Positions 7,657-15,484 of a stretch of 64,000 nt of DNA are shown in pieces. Under the pieces are notes generated by a model that saw nothing but the letters and a program-made list of their open reading frames with translations, ran no database searches and was not told the DNA's origin. Source of the DNA: Acidobacteriota bacterium (GTDB taxonomy: Bacteria > Acidobacteriota > Thermoanaerobaculia > UBA5066); NCBI GenBank assembly GCA_029781975.1, contig JAKOVQ010000009.1:62001-126000 (forward strand), written 5' to 3'. Both the position numbers and the translations under genes were made by a program. How positions within the stretch are numbered: the first letter of the stretch is position 1; every line of letters starts with the position of its first letter.

Positions 7657-9240
7657 TCAGCGCCGCGCGGCCCTCGTCCTCGCCGCCCGCCGTCCCGGCG
7701 CCGCGCCGCCGGGGCGGCGGAGTGGCGGGCGGTCCGGTGCGGCCGCCTTCGTGGGAGGTTCCGCCGTCGGCGGCGCGGGGAGGGCCGGGGCGACGAGGTC
7801 CGCCGGAAGGGCGGCCGGGGCGTCGAAGTGGGCCGCCCACTCCACGAGGGCCTGGACCTCCTCGCCGAAGGCCCGGGCGATCGACTCGGGGTCCGGGACG
7901 AGCCGGGCGTCGGTCGCGACGCCGACCACGACGTTCCCGTCGTAGCTGAAAATGCTGACGCCGAGCCCCATCCGGCCCGATTGCGGGACCCAGAACATCA
8001 CCGTCCGGATCGGCTGACCGCCGAAGTAGATCGTCTGCCTCGGCCCGATGACGTTCGTCATCACCGCGGTCGACTTGGAGCCGAACATGTCGACGAGGAG
8101 GTCGGCGACCTCGACCGGGGCGACGCCGAGCGCGTTGAGGAGCTGGAACGCCACGAAGGGCTCCGGCGTGTGCTTGATGGCGTCCATTCGCTTCTTGACC
8201 GTCCGGAGACGCTCGGCCGGGTCGGACGTGCCGACCGGGAGCGTGAGGTAGATGAGCCCGAACTGGTTCCCGAGGTCGTCGGCCTTCTCGGGGGGCCGCA
8301 GGTTCACCGGGACCATCGCGTTGATCTCGACGCCGACGGCGCGGTCGCCACGGAGGAGGAGGTAACGCCGGAGCGCTCCGCAGACGGCGGTGAGAAGGAC
8401 GTCGTTGACCGTTCCGCGGACCTTCCGGGCCACGTCCTTCACGGTTGCCACGGGGACGGGAGAGGACCAGGCCGCCCTCTTCTGGACGCCGAGGGAGCCC
8501 TTGAAGACCGTCACCGGGTCCGCGGGGCGGACGATCATCTTCAGGAGGACCCCGGCCCCTTCGGCTGCCGTCTGCGCGACGTCGAGGAGGTGGGTCGGGT
8601 GGAGGAGCGAGTCGACTCCCTGCTCCAGGATCGTGCCGGTGAGCCGGCGCGTCGTCTTGACCGTCCGCCGGACGACGGCGCGCGCGTCGTCGAAGAGCGA
8701 GACGATCCGGCTCTTCACGTCCTTCTCGAACGGCCGGAACCCCTTCGGCCTGGGCCAGGCGGCGTCCGGGGCCCGGTCGGTCGCGGAGAGGAGGACGTGG
8801 ACCAGGGCGAGGCCGTCGCCGATGCAGTGGTGGAACCGGAGGAGGACGCCGCATCCCTCGCCGTAGTCCTCGAGGAGGTGGCATTGCCAGAGCGGCTTGG
8901 AGAAGTCGAGGGGAGTCGACATCAGGTCGCTCACCACGTCGCGCAGGACCGCCTCGTCGCCGGGGGCGGGGAGGGCGATCCGATGGACGTGGGCGTTGAT
9001 GTCGAACGTCGGGTCGCGCACCCACCAGGCGCTCGACCCCTCCTGCCTGACCCGGTGCCGCAGGCGGGGGAACCGTTCTGCCATCCGCACCTGGAAGGTG
9101 TCGCGGAGCCGGTCGAACGAGACGGGCTGGTCGAAGAGGAAGATCCCCGTCACCATCATCAGGTTCGTCGGGTCTTCCATGTGGAGCCAGGCGGTGTCGA
9201 CGTTCGTCAGAGGCGTGCCGTGGCGCACCTTGTCCGGCAT
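7657..9240 (-). CDS. Wax ester synthase / diacylglycerol acyltransferase (WS/DGAT)
   Basis: 527 residues. The catalytic HHxxxDG motif is HHCIGDG at 137-143. Other family blocks are present: PLDFSKPLWQ before the motif, NDVLLTAVCGALRRYL, the 'PVNLRPP' segment and the C-terminal 'NVIGP...GVSIFSYDG' region. These enzymes esterify fatty alcohols or diacylglycerol with acyl-CoA to make storage lipids at the membrane face. The last 50 residues are an Ala/Pro/Arg-rich tail not typical of the core. The start is supported by a TAGCAT box ending 6 bases before the ATG. It is divergent from the macro-domain gene. Confidence 0.93.
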   Translation of the reverse strand: MPDKVRHGTPLTNVDTAWLHMEDPTNLMMVTGIFLFDQPVSFDRLRDTFQVRMAERFPRLRHRVRQEGSSAWWVRDPTFDINAHVHRIALPAPGDEAVLRDVVSDLMSTPLDFSKPLWQCHLLEDYGEGCGVLLRFHHCIGDGLALVHVLLSATDRAPDAAWPRPKGFRPFEKDVKSRIVSLFDDARAVVRRTVKTTRRLTGTILEQGVDSLLHPTHLLDVAQTAAEGAGVLLKMIVRPADPVTVFKGSLGVQKRAAWSSPVPVATVKDVARKVRGTVNDVLLTAVCGALRRYLLLRGDRAVGVEINAMVPVNLRPPEKADDLGNQFGLIYLTLPVGTSDPAERLRTVKKRMDAIKHTPEPFVAFQLLNALGVAPVEVADLLVDMFGSKSTAVMTNVIGPRQTIYFGGQPIRTVMFWVPQSGRMGLGVSIFSYDGNVVVGVATDARLVPDPESIARAFGEEVQALVEWAAHFDAPAALPADLVAPALPAPPTAEPPTKAAAPDRPPLRRPGGAAPGRRAARTRAARR

Positions 9241-9356: not shown

Positions 9357-9887
9357 ATGGTCGAGCGGCGCGGACGGATCGTGATCCTCGAGGGGGACAT
9401 CACCCGGCTCGACGTCGACGCGATCGTCAACGCGGCCAACTCCTCGCTCCTCGGGGGCGGAGGCGTCGACGGGGCGATCCACCGCGCCGCCGGGCCGCGC
9501 CTGCTCGAGGAGTGCCGGGCGATCGGCGGCTGCTCGCCGGGCGACGCGAAGCTCACCAGGGGCTACGACCTCCCGGCGCGCTGGGTCATCCACACGGTCG
9601 GGCCGGTCTGGCACGGCGGGGGACAGGGGGAGGACGAGACCCTGGCGCGCTGCTACAGGGCGAGCCTCTCGCTCGCCGAGTCGCAGGGGCTCCGGAGCGT
9701 CGCCTTCCCGGCGATCTCGACGGGCGTCTACGGGTTCCCCCTGGCGAGGGCCTGCCGGATCGCCCTCCGGGAGGTCGACCGCTTCCTCGAGCGGGCGAGG
9801 CACGTCGAGGAGGTCGTCTTCGTCGCCTTCGGCGCGGACGCGCTCGACGCGTACCTCAGCGCCGAGCGCGAGCGGGCCCTCGGCTAA
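9357..9887 (+). CDS. Macro-domain O-acetyl-ADP-ribose deacetylase
   Basis: 176 residues, the usual length of the YmdB/MacroD class. Ligand-binding motifs are all present: GDIT near residue 13, [18 protein letters not shown] (the Asn and GGGVDGAIH loop binding the distal ribose), the '[22 protein letters not shown]' block and [10 protein letters not shown] around the phosphates. Such enzymes remove O-acetyl-ADP-ribose or mono-ADP-ribose from proteins in the cytosol. A GGAGG site precedes the ATG and TATGAT at 9304-9309 gives a leader of about 40 bases. Its TAA stop is reused as part of a -10 box for the next gene. Confidence 0.92.
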
Positions 9888-9926: not shown

Positions 9927-10700
9927 ATGACGGACCAGCCGCCCTTCGAGCCCCCTTCGCCGATCGCGCCCCCCCCGCCACCCCCGGGCGGCTACGCGCC
10001 GCCTCCTCCGCCGCCGGGCGGGGGCTGGGGAGCCCCGCCGCCTCCGGCGGCCGCGCCCCTCCCGTGGGACGTGAGGAACACGATCGGCGTCGTCCCGGCC
10101 TTCGCCGAGACGCTGAAGCTGCTGATCACCAGGCCCGCGGAGGCGTGGGCGAGGACACGCGAGTCGGGCGACCTCGGGGGACCGGTCCTCTTCTCGATCG
10201 CGGTCTCGTGGGCGGGGGTCGCCCTGTCGAGCGTCTGGAGCCTGGCCTTCGGCAACCCGTGGATCGCGCTCCTCCCCCCGGAGATGCGCGACCGCCTCGG
10301 GGGGGCCATGATGGCTCACGCGGGGGGCGTCCTGATCCAGCTGGCGATCGCGCCGATCGTCCTTCTGATCGCCCTCTTCGTCTGGGCCGCCATCCAGCAC
10401 GTCTCGTTCCTGATCGTCGGGGCGCTCAACCAGTCGACGGCGGGCTTCGAGGGGACGGTGCGCGTCCTGGCCTACTCGTCCGTCGCGGACCTCGCGAACG
10501 CGGTCCCGATCGTCGGCGGCCTCGCGGCTCTGGTCTGGAAGATCGTCCTGATGGTCCTCGGCGCCACGCGGCTCCACCGGACGACGCAGGGGAAAGCGAT
10601 CTTCGGCATCCTCCTCCCCCTCGCCCTCTGCTGCGTCTGCCTCGTGGGCGTGATCGCCGTCGCCATCGGATGGGCGGTCACCGCCTTCTCGCACCGCTGA
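9927..10700 (+). CDS. YIP1-family membrane protein
   Basis: 257 residues. Residues 1-50 are a Pro/Gly-rich cytosolic tail (poly-Pro runs). The rest carries five predicted membrane helices in the Yip1 pattern, including 'GLAALVWKIVLMVLGATRLHRTT', where bacterial family members have a conserved W-x-x-x-L then H-x-x-x turn. Bacterial YIP1 proteins are membrane proteins of unknown role. TAAGAT at 9885-9890 overlaps the stop of the macro-domain gene and a GAGGTG site lies before the ATG. The 3-prime end overlaps the DUF2752 gene by 31 bases in another frame. Confidence 0.82.
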   Translation: MTDQPPFEPPSPIAPPPPPPGGYAPPPPPPGGGWGAPPPPAAAPLPWDVRNTIGVVPAFAETLKLLITRPAEAWARTRESGDLGGPVLFSIAVSWAGVALSSVWSLAFGNPWIALLPPEMRDRLGGAMMAHAGGVLIQLAIAPIVLLIALFVWAAIQHVSFLIVGALNQSTAGFEGTVRVLAYSSVADLANAVPIVGGLAALVWKIVLMVLGATRLHRTTQGKAIFGILLPLALCCVCLVGVIAVAIGWAVTAFSHR

Positions 10701-11161
10701 GGCGCCGAGCGCCGGCGTCCGGCGGCGCGGACGCGCCGCCCCGGGACGGCGAGAGGACGCCGGCCGGTCCCCCGGCCGACGCCCTGGCCCGGACGTGGGC
10801 GGGGCTCGCCCTTCTGGCCTCGGCGCTCCTGGCGTTCGCTCCTCCCTCGTTCCTCGCCGCCGCCTCCCGCGCCCTCCCCGGCTGCCTCTGGAAGGGCCTC
10901 ACCGGCGTCCCCTGTCCCGGCTGCGGGAGCGGCCGCGCCGCCCTCGCGCTCGCCTCGGGGCAGATGGCGGAGGCGTTCCGGCTCAACCCTCTCTTCGCGG
11001 CCTCGCTCCTCGTCTTCGTGGCGGCGGGTCTCGTCGCCGGAGCCCTCTCCCTCTCCGGGAGGCCGCTCCGCGAGCCCCGCCGGCTCCCGCGCTGGCTCTT
11101 CCTCCTCCTCGTCCTGGCCGTGGCGGCGAACTGGGGGTGGCTCCTTTCGGACGGGCGCTGA
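10670..11161 (+). CDS. DUF2752 membrane protein
   Basis: 163 residues. The diagnostic DUF2752 block is present: GVPCPGCGSGRAALALASGQ followed by EAFRLNPL, i.e. a C-P-x-C-G-x-x-R loop after the first helix, with two further helices downstream. Family members are small membrane proteins of unknown function, often close to YIP1 or zinc-ribbon membrane proteins, as here. The only ATG in frame is at 10670, inside the end of the YIP1 gene, implying translational coupling. About 45 residues before the first helix look unstructured, so a downstream non-ATG start cannot be ruled out. Confidence 0.75.
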   Translation: MGGHRLLAPLRRRAPASGGADAPPRDGERTPAGPPADALARTWAGLALLASALLAFAPPSFLAAASRALPGCLWKGLTGVPCPGCGSGRAALALASGQMAEAFRLNPLFAASLLVFVAAGLVAGALSLSGRPLREPRRLPRWLFLLLVLAVAANWGWLLSDGR

Positions 11162-11176
11162 CGCACCGTCCGGGCG

Positions 11177-11791
11177 TCAGCGCCCGTCCGGCGCAGTCCC
11201 CTGCGCCGGCTCTCCCGGAAGGCCCGGGAGCCGGCCGGCTGCGGCCAGGTCGTAGAGGTCCCGGAAGGTCGCCCTCAGGTCGCCTCCCCTGAGCTCGAAG
11301 GCCGCGCGGGCCGCGGCGAGGGCAGGAGCCTGGGGCGGGCCGCCGAGGAGCTCGGCGAGCAGCTCCTCGAGGAGCGCGAGGTCCGTCCCGCAGGTCGCGA
11401 GAGTCGGGAGGAGGCCGGGCCGGTGGGTCGTCACGACGAGACCGGCCGCGCGGGCCGCGACGATCCGCAGACGGAGCCAGGCGAGGCGCGGGAGCCGCTC
11501 GGCCGAGTCGAGGAGCACGACGTCGGCCCGGGCGGGGGGCGGGTCGAGCGTCCATCCGACGCCCGCCCCCTCCGGGGCGCTGCGGAGGAGGACCGGAACG
11601 CCCTCGCTCGAGAGGCGCGCGGCGAGCTCCTCGAGGAGCGTCGTCTTGCCCGAGCCGCGCGGCCCGACGAGCGCGCCGCGAAAGCGGAGCTCCCGGAGGC
11701 GGCGGAGGAGCCCGTCCCACGTCTCGCTGCGGAAGCGGTAGCTGAGGGAGACGACTCTCTCGCTCCGGAACGGGTTGTCGGCCGGCCTCAC
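11177..11791 (-). CDS. P-loop ATPase of a three-gene operon
   Basis: 204 residues. The N-terminus NPFRSERVVSLSYRF is followed by a Walker A loop GPRGSGKTT (43-51) and a Walker B-like strand VVLLDSAERL (91-100, acidic D95). The arrangement resembles small AAA/ExeA-type ATPases, but no sensor or DNA-binding domain is visible. It probably uses ATP to drive or gate something linked to its two upstream partners. The start is a GTG whose last two bases are shared with the TGA of the upstream gene (GTGA overlap), so it is coupled. Substrate and partner are unknown. Confidence 0.75.
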   Translation of the reverse strand: MRPADNPFRSERVVSLSYRFRSETWDGLLRRLRELRFRGALVGPRGSGKTTLLEELAARLSSEGVPVLLRSAPEGAGVGWTLDPPPARADVVLLDSAERLPRLAWLRLRIVAARAAGLVVTTHRPGLLPTLATCGTDLALLEELLAELLGGPPQAPALAAARAAFELRGGDLRATFRDLYDLAAAGRLPGLPGEPAQGTAPDGR

Positions 11792-12162
11792 GTGGTCGAC
11801 AGGGGAGTCAGGACGATCTCGCGGCCGGTCGGCGAGACCACGAGCCCGAGCGCCGCGGACTCCAGCGACGGCTCGACGACGGCTTCCACCGCCCAGGCGA
11901 GGGTGATCAGCGTCCCCGAGAAGCTGTAGGGCCCGTCGGGAAGGAGGAAGCGGAAGGTCCCCCCCTCGCTGGCGACGCCCGGGCGGGAGAGCCTGAGGAC
12001 GTCGACGACGCCGACGTCCCGGGTCCCTTTCCCCGACGTGTGCCAGAAGAGGCGGACCTCGAGGGCCTCGGGCTCGTGGTCGAGGCTCCAGGAGAGGGAT
12101 CCCTCGAGCGTCTCGCCGGGGGCGTAGCGGTCCCGTCCGTCGCGCAGGGCGATCGAGAGCAT
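11788..12162 (-). CDS. Arrestin-like beta-sandwich protein
   Basis: 124 residues, no signal or membrane segment. The pattern 'RDRYAPGETLEGSLSW', then 'LEVRLFWHTSGKGTRDVGVV', then 'FRFLLPDGPYSFSGTLITLAWAVEAVV' follows the strand order of arrestin/Spo0M-like folds: a Y-x-P-G-E-x-L-x-G turn, a G-K-G-T loop and a 'P-Y-S-F-S-G' block. No annotated family is certain. The ATG overlaps the TGA of the upstream DUF3592 gene by one base (TGATG), with GGGGAGG before it, and its own stop overlaps the ATPase start. The three genes are one translationally coupled operon. Confidence 0.65.
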   Translation of the reverse strand: MLSIALRDGRDRYAPGETLEGSLSWSLDHEPEALEVRLFWHTSGKGTRDVGVVDVLRLSRPGVASEGGTFRFLLPDGPYSFSGTLITLAWAVEAVVEPSLESAALGLVVSPTGREIVLTPLSTT

Positions 12163-13364
12163 CACACGCCTCCCCGCTCCGGCGCGAGCGGCAGGACGAC
12201 GATCGGGAACTTCGCCTCCACCCGCGGCTTGCGCAGCGTTTCCCCGATCAGGTCGAGCGTCCAGACGACCTTGTTGTGCTCGGCGTCGAAGGTCGGGACG
12301 CACCCCGCGGGGACGAGGACCTCCGCGTCCCCCTGGACGACGCCGTAGGGATCGGCCGTCAGGACGACCGGGACGGACGCGAAGACCGACTTGTCCGTGA
12401 CCGAGTCGGTCCCGCGGCGGTAGGTGGCCTCCTCGTGGCCGGTCAGGACGATCCGGAGCTGCTGGAGCCTCGCGGTCCTCCCCGTGAACCGCCACGAAAC
12501 CACGGCCCGAGCTCCCAGCCGGACGGCGCCGGGGGTGAGGGTGAGGGCGGGGACGGGGTTGAAGAGGGCGCGCGCCGCGTCGAAGGTCTTCCAGACGAGG
12601 GCGAGGCCCACCAGGACGAACGGCAGGAGGAAGAGGCCGACGCCCCAGGGAGGCCCCTCCCCGTGGAGCCACCCGTAGACGGCGAAGCCGACGAAGAGGG
12701 AGACGATGCCGTTCCAGAAGAGGGTGGCGAGGAGGCTGCAGCCGAGCGCCTTCGCGGGGGTTTCGGTCGGCTTCAGCTCGACGGGGCTCCACGGGTCGGC
12801 CGGTGGGCCGGGAGACCCGGGAACGCCGGGGGGAGCGGCGGCGGCGCGGGACGACCGCTTCCGGGCGCCGAAGACGGCCCAGGCGAAGCCCCCGCCGCCG
12901 ACGGCGACGAAGACGAGGGGGAAGAGGCCGATGAGGAGGAAGAGCCCGGGGTCGCGGTCGAGCACCGCCTCCGAAGGCTGGCGGGGATCCACCCAGCAGG
13001 TCGCATCCGAGCCGGGCGGGTAGCGGTCGACGATCGCCTGCTTCCCCGCGCGTCCGCTCGAGGAGGCCTCGAAGAAGTCGTACCGGTCCGACTCGTAGAG
13101 CTTCCCGTCGTAGACGTAGGAGTAGCGGACCCTCGGCCGGAAGGTGTCGCCGTCGCTCGAGGCGACGACGTCGCTCGACAGGACCCGGCAGTCCCTCTTC
13201 TCCCAGCCCCGGGCGGCGACGATCCGTCCGGCCGGCCGGAGGACGAGGAACCAGAGCATCACCAGCCCGGCGACGAGGAAGATCGAGAAGAAGAGGGCGA
13301 GGCACCCCCAGGGGGTCTTCGCGGGGGTCGCCAGGGACAGGGGCTTTCCGCGAGAGCGCGCCAT
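12162..13364 (-). CDS. DUF3592-domain membrane protein with C-terminal arrestin-like domain
   Basis: 400 residues. An N-terminal helix (about 18-45) leads into a DUF3592 domain (about 45-165: 'CRVLSSDVV...PRVRYSYVYDGKLYESDRYDF', 'YPPGSDATCWVDP'). Two further hydrophobic segments lie near 210-260. The last 130 residues (PVPALTLTPG..., ending 'GCVPTFDAEHNKVVWTLD') look like the second half of an arrestin fold, which matches the downstream 124-residue protein. First gene of the operon; TAAACT at 13414-13419 and a GAGAGGTGAG site precede the ATG. Function unknown. Confidence 0.75.
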   Translation of the reverse strand: MARSRGKPLSLATPAKTPWGCLALFFSIFLVAGLVMLWFLVLRPAGRIVAARGWEKRDCRVLSSDVVASSDGDTFRPRVRYSYVYDGKLYESDRYDFFEASSSGRAGKQAIVDRYPPGSDATCWVDPRQPSEAVLDRDPGLFLLIGLFPLVFVAVGGGGFAWAVFGARKRSSRAAAAPPGVPGSPGPPADPWSPVELKPTETPAKALGCSLLATLFWNGIVSLFVGFAVYGWLHGEGPPWGVGLFLLPFVLVGLALVWKTFDAARALFNPVPALTLTPGAVRLGARAVVSWRFTGRTARLQQLRIVLTGHEEATYRRGTDSVTDKSVFASVPVVLTADPYGVVQGDAEVLVPAGCVPTFDAEHNKVVWTLDLIGETLRKPRVEAKFPIVVLPLAPERGGV

Positions 13365-14446: not shown

Positions 14447-15484
14447 ATGTGGTACGACCCGCTGCTCGAGCGCCGGCTCGCCCCCGACCTCCTGATCCGG
14501 CGCGAGGTCAGGAAGCGCCTGCGGCGGCTCCTCGCGGACGGGAAGGCGGACGACGCGGAGCGAGCGCAGGACGGGCTCCGCGCCCTCCTCGCGACGATGA
14601 GGGAGAGCCCCGTGGCCGGGGCTGGCGGCGGGGGGGCCGAGCCGCGCGAGGAGGTGCCGCCGGCCTTCTTCGAGCTCGCCCTCGGCGCCCGGCTGAAGGA
14701 CTCGTGCGCCCTCTTCGGGCCGGGGGTCGCCTCGCTCGGGGAGGCGGAGGAGGCGATGCTGGCGCTGACGTGCGAGCGGGCGCAGCTGGCGGACGGCCAG
14801 AACGTCCTCGAGCTCGGCTGCGGCTGGGGCTCGCTCACCCTCTTCATGGCCGAGCGCTACCCCGCGAGCCGGATCGTCGCCGTCTCGACCTCGAAGGTCC
14901 AGCGCGACTTCCTCGAAGCGCGCGCGAAGGAGCAGGGGATCGCGAACGTCAAGGTGGTCACCGCCGACATGAACGTCTTCGACCCGGCCACGGGCCCCGA
15001 GTTCGACCAGGTCGTCTCGGTGGAGACGCTCGAGCGGATGCGGAACTGGCCCGAGCTCCTCGGGCGGATCGCCACCTGGATGAGGGCCGACGCGCGCCTC
15101 TTCGTCCACGTCGGGGCCCACCGGGACGCGTCGTTCCTCGCGGAGCCGCGGGGCGAGGAGGACGGGTCGGTCCGGCCGCTCGTCCCGGGCGGGCTGACGC
15201 CGTCCGACGCCCTCCTCCTCCACTGCGCCGACCACGTCGTCGTCGAGGACCACTGGCGCCTCTCGGGCGTCCACTACCGGAGGACGGCGGAGGCATGGGT
15301 CGCGAACCTCGACCGGAACCGGCGGAAGCTCCTCGCGCTCTTCCGCGGCGTCCACGGGCGCGAGGGCGCGCGGAGGAGGCTCCTGGCGTGGCGGGTCGCC
15401 TTCCTCGCCCGCGCGGAGCTCTGGGGCTTCCGGGGCGGGAACGAGTGGATCGTCTCGCACTACCGCCTGAGGCGGCGCCGCTGA
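14447..15484 (+). CDS. Cyclopropane-fatty-acid-synthase-like SAM methyltransferase
   Basis: 345 residues. Motif I is VLELGCGWGS at 120-129, with the C-G-W-G-S signature of the CFA synthase / mycolic acid cyclopropane synthase / coclaurine N-methyltransferase group. 'LKDSCALF' upstream corresponds to the family's Y-S-x-A-x-F region in altered form, and 'YPASRIVAVSTSKVQ' fits motif II. The C-terminal helical part (EAWVANLDRNRRKLLALF) is also characteristic. Bacterial members methylate lipids or small amines; the altered substrate-side motif means the reaction cannot be stated. Soluble, no signal peptide. Confidence 0.82.
   Translation: MWYDPLLERRLAPDLLIRREVRKRLRRLLADGKADDAERAQDGLRALLATMRESPVAGAGGGGAEPREEVPPAFFELALGARLKDSCALFGPGVASLGEAEEAMLALTCERAQLADGQNVLELGCGWGSLTLFMAERYPASRIVAVSTSKVQRDFLEARAKEQGIANVKVVTADMNVFDPATGPEFDQVVSVETLERMRNWPELLGRIATWMRADARLFVHVGAHRDASFLAEPRGEEDGSVRPLVPGGLTPSDALLLHCADHVVVEDHWRLSGVHYRRTAEAWVANLDRNRRKLLALFRGVHGREGARRRLLAWRVAFLARAELWGFRGGNEWIVSHYRLRRRR

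Follow-up and report, generated by a model that had tools for sequence, protein, structure and literature searches.

What might a bacterium do with an arrestin, a kind of protein that, like Vps26, serves eukaryotic cells as a central adaptor? The question is raised by three overlapping genes in a 64,000-nucleotide stretch of the genome of an Acidobacteriota bacterium (GenBank assembly GCA_029781975.1, a 5.37-Mb draft; contig JAKOVQ010000009.1, positions 62,001 to 126,000), which we call the window. We think it fairly probable that this trio encodes a bacterial arrestin split in two and anchored in the membrane, together with an ATPase of its own: gene 1 would combine a DUF3592 membrane protein with an arrestin C-lobe, gene 2 would supply a soluble N-lobe, and gene 3 a putative AAA-like P-loop ATPase. 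The pairing of the lobes we infer because natural fusions support it, and the action of the ATPase on them because its nested occurrence across genomes and a conserved motif at the tip of the C-lobe support it.

The genes follow one another on the minus strand at 11,177–13,364, as do all their features given below, and comprise 400, 124 and 204 codons. As a preliminary description of this DNA had stated, they overlap by 1 and 4 bases: the TGA of gene 1 (12,164–12,162) shares one base with the ATG of gene 2 (12,162–12,160), and the stop codon of gene 2 (11,790–11,788) lies within the overlap with gene 3, which starts at a GTG (11,791–11,789). The G+C content of the trio is 73.7%, against 73.2% for the window, and the genes look coding because third-position G+C in the three reading frames is 93–95%.

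Gene 1 (12,162–13,364; 400 amino acids (aa), ATG start) matches DUF3592 (PF12158) at residues 59–139 with an E-value of 1.1e-16 and 61.6 bits against a gathering score of 25.3, which bears out its earlier naming as a DUF3592 membrane protein. The domain (12,948–13,190), predicted to be extracytoplasmic from the Pfam match and hydropathy, lies between transmembrane (TM) helix 1 (residues 19–51; 13,212–13,310) and TM helix 2 (residues 148–175; 12,840–12,923), both placed by model helices and hydropathy. Of 72 aligned homologues, 57 have both of its cysteines, Cys59 and Cys123, a pair that fits a location outside the cytoplasm. The AlphaFold2 model (72-row alignment) reaches a predicted local distance difference test (pLDDT) score of 90.3 overall and 95–98 in the C-lobe, a predicted cytoplasmic beta-sandwich at residues 271–391 (12,192–12,554). 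Foldseek matched this C-terminal part to ARRDC3 (5e-8) and Vps26 (1e-6), and pairwise structural comparison (VIA) gave a Z of 12.5 with both the N-lobe of ARRDC3 (131 residues, 3.8 Å) and the C-lobe of Vps26B (127 residues, 2.4 Å); as modelled, it is an arrestin-type beta-sandwich as in the arrestin clan (Pfam CL0135). A TM hairpin (residues 203–266, with a conserved WNG at 217–219; 12,567–12,758) precedes the sandwich. Since the range matched by Vps26 begins at residues 187–193, upstream of the hairpin, and a short strand within that Vps26/arrestin C-lobe-aligned range (residues 195–197; 12,774–12,782) also comes before it, the hairpin appears in the model to interrupt the C-lobe behind its first strand. 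It probably holds the C-lobe at the cytoplasmic face.

On which side of the membrane does each part lie? Among 85 proteins, simple hydropathy analysis predicted six TM segments for 37 with two DUF3592 domains and four for 31 with one. Even counts put the N terminus of gene 1 and the C-lobe on the same side, and the positive-inside rule makes that side the cytoplasm in 65 of the 75 even-TM proteins and in 67 of all 85; we infer that the DUF3592 domain faces the periplasm. Foldseek also matched the gene 1 model to BK-channel beta-4 subunits (6v22 and others; E about 3e-5, 204 columns) at low TM-scores of 0.22 and 0.35, possibly through the TM–DUF3592–TM part.

Gene 2 (11,788–12,162; 124 aa, ATG start) would provide the soluble N-lobe, judging from its predicted structure. 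The AlphaFold2 model (pLDDT 94.7, 69-row alignment) is all beta; its Foldseek hits were ARRDC3 (7e-7), Vps26B (1e-6), TXNIP (4e-6) and Spo0M (8e-6), and the structural comparison used for gene 1 aligned it with Vps26A (Z 13.0, 2.9 Å, 120 residues) and Spo0M (Z 12.0, 2.1 Å, 105 residues). The model is again an arrestin-type beta-sandwich of clan CL0135, so that both parts previously called arrestin-like take this form in prediction. A conserved loop, T-x-GKGT-x-D (residues 42–49; 12,016–12,039), stands opposite the C-lobe tip in a profile–profile alignment, and MAFFT placed N-lobe rows onto the C-lobe half of a natural C–N fusion.

Can the relationship be traced in sequence as well? The remote homology that the preliminary description had proposed to search for held for relatives of the two proteins and for the N-lobe profile; it did not hold for the window proteins alone or for the C-lobe profile. 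Pfam gave no match for gene 2 alone, no arrestin-clan sequence profile matched the window's own C-lobe alone, and no NCBIfam family matched genes 1 and 2. Among 71 N-lobes searched against Pfam at E up to 1, 19 matched Arrestin_N (best 4e-6) and 4 Arrestin_C, the next unrelated family reaching 3 members (best 0.11); among 77 C-lobes, the counts were 9 for Arrestin_C (best 3.5e-5), 5 for Arrestin_N and 5 for Rgp1. All ten PDB hits of the gene 2 profile at E up to 10 (best 0.01) belong to the arrestin clan.

The lobes probably belong together, as natural fusions occur in both orders. DUF3592–C-lobe–N-lobe fusions are found at four loci (L073, L084, L102, L204), and in a second arrangement, class B, an ATPase gene is followed, at spacings from overlap to about 0.8 kb, by a gene for a single N-lobe–TM–TM–C-lobe protein. 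Class B occurs in three genomes of the window's class (L014, L015, L038) and at eight Planctomycetota loci (L317, L319–L321, L324–L325, L332–L333), whose aligned arrestins carry an extra C-terminal region; two Planctomycetota genomes (G1001 and G1009) hold both classes. In two Verrucomicrobiota genomes (L203, L206), a hairpin C-lobe without DUF3592 stands beside the N-lobe, so that hairpin–C-lobe plus N-lobe would be the core unit. At E up to 0.01, the class-B arrestins in alignment A12 (9 of the 11 found beside an ATPase; L317 and L325 omitted) match Arrestin_N in 9/9 cases (best 2.7e-18), Arrestin_C in 6/9 (7.9e-9) and the Spo0M profile in 6/9 (best 3e-6), and the first of them scores above the Arrestin_N cut-off. 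Against the PDB, their profile recovered nine arrestin-clan chains at E ≤0.0004 (ARRDC3 2e-7, TXNIP 9e-7, Vps26C 2e-5), followed by Piezo2 (0.026), Spo0M (0.097), a designed protein and PsbM. A two-part arrestin with one half membrane-bound, suggested earlier as a possibility, thus gains support from the models and from fusions in both orders.

Gene 3 (11,177–11,791; 204 aa, GTG start) carries a Walker A motif, GPRGSGKT (residues 43–50; 11,642–11,665), a Walker B region, VLLDSAE (residues 92–98; 11,498–11,518), and a GDLR (residues 170–173; 11,273–11,284) that we take to be sensor-2-like and whose arginine is kept in 58 of 59 aligned ATPases. G43, G46, G48, K49 and D95 are kept in 59/59, so Walker A and the Walker B aspartate are present in all the aligned ATPases. 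Among the best 25 of 34 Pfam matches, the AAA families stay below their gathering cut-offs, and the families among the best 25 of 43 NCBIfam matches lie far below theirs; nSTAND_NTPase5 is matched by 42/59 of the ATPases at E up to 0.01. The ATPases of the trio type (class A) read DG.E at Walker B, with the acid at +3 in 54/59, a consensus of DGAE instead of DE. No glutamate stands beside the Walker B aspartate, and as the catalytic glutamate of AAA-type ATPases is thus not in its place, we name gene 3 a putative AAA-like P-loop ATPase. Class-B ATPases have DE in 11/11 cases and are homologous to class A (hhalign E 2e-15, probability 98.5, 168 columns). With small P-loop ATPases of the AAA_16/AAA_22 types the gene 3 family shares Walker A, an N-terminal NPF and a GN/DxR motif; it differs from them in DGAE for DE and in being tied to an arrestin, and the window protein scores below their Pfam gathering thresholds.

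How widely is the arrangement kept? A scan of a genome collection seeded on the gene 1 family gave 96 relatives, of which 80 were kept and their open reading frames (ORFs) searched with hidden Markov models (HMMs); given this seed, independent evidence comes from genes 2 and 3 only. The relatives, mostly metagenome-assembled genomes and many of them from little-studied bacteria, belong to Acidobacteria, Planctomycetes, Verrucomicrobia, Lentisphaerae, Kiritimatiellia, Omnitrophota, Hydrogenedentota, Desulfobacteraceae, Bdellovibrionales and others. Most of them keep the order DUF3592/C-lobe, N-lobe, ATPase, the conservation that the preliminary description had asked to check: among the 77 loci whose sequence continues for 500 nt or more past gene 1, 73 have the N-lobe next or fused, and among the 73 that continue for 1400 nt or more, 55 show the full trio in order (N-lobe fused or ≤400 nt away, ATPase ≤800 nt). 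Measured from the start codon nearest the HMM start, genes 1 and 2 overlap in 46/71 loci and lie within 30 nt in 66/71; for genes 2 and 3 the figures are 30/56 and 49/56. Locus counts leave out three duplicates (L010, L012 and L013, from the same genomes as L064, L066 and L109) and the class-B loci L014 and L015, and fused or cut-off rows were left out of alignments, for example L072 (A4), L113 (A7), L041 (A5) and L111 (A6). The arrangement exceeds chance. Where no ATPase neighbours the lobes, one is encoded elsewhere (E ≤1e-10) in 10 of 13 genomes, once as a partial match, and the same search recovered the ATPase in both of two genomes in which it is adjacent; at L059 and L068 the contig ends shortly past gene 1. 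One locus, L072 of Rubritalea profundi, may be a decaying copy: its N-lobe ORF has 79 aa, its DUF3592 part is split over two ORFs and its ATPase lies about 1 Mb off.

Closer to the window the distribution is patchy. A gene 2 search found 7 of 60 genomes including the window's own, with 0/13 others of its family and 0/5 of its order, and a profile search within its class found 23/148, again with its own included. Horizontal transfer was considered as the chief cause and set aside: the four trios with which the window's trio groups (95, starred) come from the same class and phylum, and we therefore prefer, without regarding it as proved, loss combined with mostly vertical descent as what the sequences suggest. 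The tree follows phyla, with 15 label changes against 33 when shuffled. Across 55 loci, pairwise distances in one of the three proteins correlate with those in the others (r 0.49–0.62 against ≤0.26 in 500 shuffles), which shared descent alone could also produce. As judged from gene order and sequence comparison, genes 1–3 are inherited together. Beyond the trio, none of the 25 largest neighbour clusters recurs from one lineage to another; flanks are common to close relatives only, and the largest neighbour cluster (9 loci, ABC-transporter-like by sequence) is scattered in position.

Two phyla were surveyed, each counted with its centre genome: 240 Verrucomicrobiota around G417 (Haloferula rosea) and 363 Planctomycetota around G418 (Planctomycetales ZRK34). 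In Verrucomicrobiota, C-lobe (23 genomes), N-lobe (15) and ATPase (10) are strictly nested: all 10 ATPase genomes have the N-lobe and all 15 N-lobe genomes the C-lobe (hypergeometric 2e-14 and 2e-18, kinship ignored). The Planctomycetota comprise 63 genomes with a C-lobe and 47 with an ATPase; 47/47 ATPase genomes hold a C-lobe, within 2.5 kb in 42/47. In the stretches taken from these genomes, an N-lobe hit was found for 47/47 ATPase genomes and 11/16 others, and 6 of these 16, counted as lacking a class-A ATPase, have one of class B. That an ATPase serves the lobes, as had been proposed, accordingly finds support in the nesting of the ATPase among lobe-bearing genomes, also where it is unlinked.

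Where on the lobes might the ATPase act? The C-lobe ends one hairpin in a conserved tip, EEATYRRGT (residues 311–319; 12,408–12,434), first noticed as degenerate in C-lobes without an N-lobe. Among the Verrucomicrobiota C-lobe genomes, the strict motif, defined by a regular expression, occurs in 10/10 with the ATPase and 1/13 without it (p 1e-5, kinship ignored); 8/8 of the C-lobes from N-lobe-less genomes do not have it, and class-B C-lobes mostly show SGSGT at this position. The same association was predicted beforehand for Planctomycetota, where the strict motif was found in 20/47 genomes with and 0/16 without the ATPase (p 0.001). The tip motif may thus be a contact site for the ATPase or the N-lobe. 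Six of the eight N-lobe-less Verrucomicrobiota C-lobe genomes (L197–L202) have a degenerate tip and no N-lobe behind the C-lobe; in L197, L201 and L202 an ORF of 89–103 aa follows, and then a 539-aa oxidase that is presumably nadB-like.

In the mechanism that we propose, the periplasmic DUF3592 domain would sense something and the TM hairpin would relay the signal, while the N-lobe would dock onto the anchored C-lobe at the cytoplasmic face to form a two-lobed arrestin clamp. The ATPase would dock near the YRRGT tip and use ATP to load, release or reshape the N-lobe, and the clamp would grip a membrane or cytoplasmic client only upon the signal. To the further idea that this is an undescribed class of bacterial membrane machine, an arrestin with lobes tethered to the inner membrane by the hairpin and often encoded by two genes, gated by an AAA-like ATPase and read out by a periplasmic DUF3592 sensor, we give somewhat less than even credence.

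Several observations weigh against a split arrestin worked by an ATPase. The names of the lobes are soft: gene 2 also resembles the C-lobes of beta-arrestins, and the gene 1 C-lobe the N-lobes of ARRDC3 and Spo0M. Aligned with each other, the lobes reach a probability of only 12% in hhalign (E 0.0024, 110 columns), and the C-lobe profile found no arrestins among its 8 PDB hits to E 10, of which the best was a cell surface protein (3.6e-4). The positive-inside margin for the window's own gene 1 is small, at 4.0 against 3.5, and with the Walker B glutamate displaced in class A, hydrolysis by gene 3 is not assured. On the tree, the association of the tip motif comes down to only three independent contrasts, of which a mean of 2.8 agree in direction and none runs the other way (sign test p 0.25); in Planctomycetota the strict-motif prediction held in specificity and failed in 27 of 47 ATPase genomes, and the looser pattern that captures 45/47, against 3/16 without the ATPase, was chosen afterwards. 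Single absences are soft, since scoring covered only the 13 or 9 best-ranking ATPase candidates of each genome. Finally, 8 of the 23 Verrucomicrobiota C-lobe genomes have no N-lobe hit and 5 of the 15 N-lobe genomes no ATPase hit, so that the parts may act apart.

These last counts are what an alternative would lean on in which each of the two arrestin-fold proteins works by itself, perhaps as a homodimer on a partner of its own, and they share only an operon, while the ATPase works elsewhere. We consider this unlikely in view of the lobe fusions in both orders, the absence of the strict tip motif from every C-lobe of an N-lobe-less genome and, subject to the proviso about descent given above, the correlated protein distances. 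Might the trio instead be a retromer-like coat or sorting unit, whose lobes bind the tails of membrane proteins and polymerise until the ATPase disassembles the coat? Vps26 ranks with the closest structural matches to either lobe, and the C-lobe is carried by 63 of the 363 genomes of Planctomycetota, a phylum rich in internal membranes; yet the C-lobe is anchored in the membrane, as Vps26 is not, and the trio also occurs in phyla that to our knowledge are not known for internal membranes, which makes this account rather improbable. A search of the window genome for Vps35 (PF03635) gave no match, but its control matched nowhere either. Least credible of all, by a little, is a conflict or anti-phage defence module in which a STAND-like ATPase switches a membrane effector: the patchy distribution, the nSTAND_NTPase5 matches and the membrane protein in the operon would suit it, but the tree follows phyla, none of the 25 largest neighbour clusters is shared across lineages, no domain looked toxin-like, one pattern scan of viral contigs found no relative, and PADLOC matched neither gene 1 nor gene 2 and, in gene 3, only the P-loop region.

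How does a split arrestin with its own ATPase compare with known systems? Vps26 of retromer and Retriever is eukaryotic, soluble and a single chain, and has Vps35 as its partner; gene 2 matches its residues about 11–154 and the C-lobe about 156–300, at 7–20% sequence identity. Alpha-arrestins such as ARRDC3 and TXNIP, which recruit ubiquitin ligases to membrane proteins by way of PPxY tails, come first among the Foldseek hits of both lobes and, in the PDB profile searches, among those of the N-lobe and class B. Spo0M (PF07070) is a single soluble chain, whereas the lobes of the trio are separate genes, one of them membrane-bound, with an ATPase added. Its likeness lies in the fold: beside the gene 2 comparison already given, the Bacillus subtilis structure 5cl2 aligns with the C-lobe at Z 10.5 over 115 residues. 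The Spo0M profile matched none of the window proteins and nothing in the window genome (the control matched in 3 of 14 genomes); at E up to 1, it matched 1 of the 71 N-lobes (0.025) and 4 of the 77 C-lobes (best 0.0014).

The combination itself appears to be undescribed. The preliminary description knew of no such system, and we likewise found no paper on it among the matches listed in a search of open-access PubMed Central full text, the scope of which excludes subscription papers and preprints; nor did that search return a paper on DUF3592 and arrestin together. If the proposal is right, the trio would be an ATP-driven arrestin, the only one known to us, and would place the arrestin/Vps26 fold in a bacterial setting; it would also provide a molecular context for DUF3592, a domain whose function is unknown. 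Bacterial relatives of arrestin are known chiefly through Spo0M, whose role is unsettled (PMC5325327, PMC2515105). A widespread, compact unit with obvious partners could reveal what an arrestin does in bacteria, and makes that function testable in named carriers: the trio is complete in Haloferula rosea KCTC 22201 (L096) and in Planctomycetales bacterium ZRK34 (L048).

In the window, a wax ester synthase/DGAT (7,657–9,240, minus strand) and a CMAS-type methyltransferase (14,447–15,484, plus strand) lie near the trio, with no evidence tying them to it, and the stretch read at 10,717–11,161 has no Pfam match. The two genes that lie past gene 3 are read from the plus strand towards the trio and encode a Macro-domain protein (9,357–9,887; Pfam E 2.7e-48) and a Yip1-domain membrane protein (9,927–10,700; Pfam E 4.8e-13).

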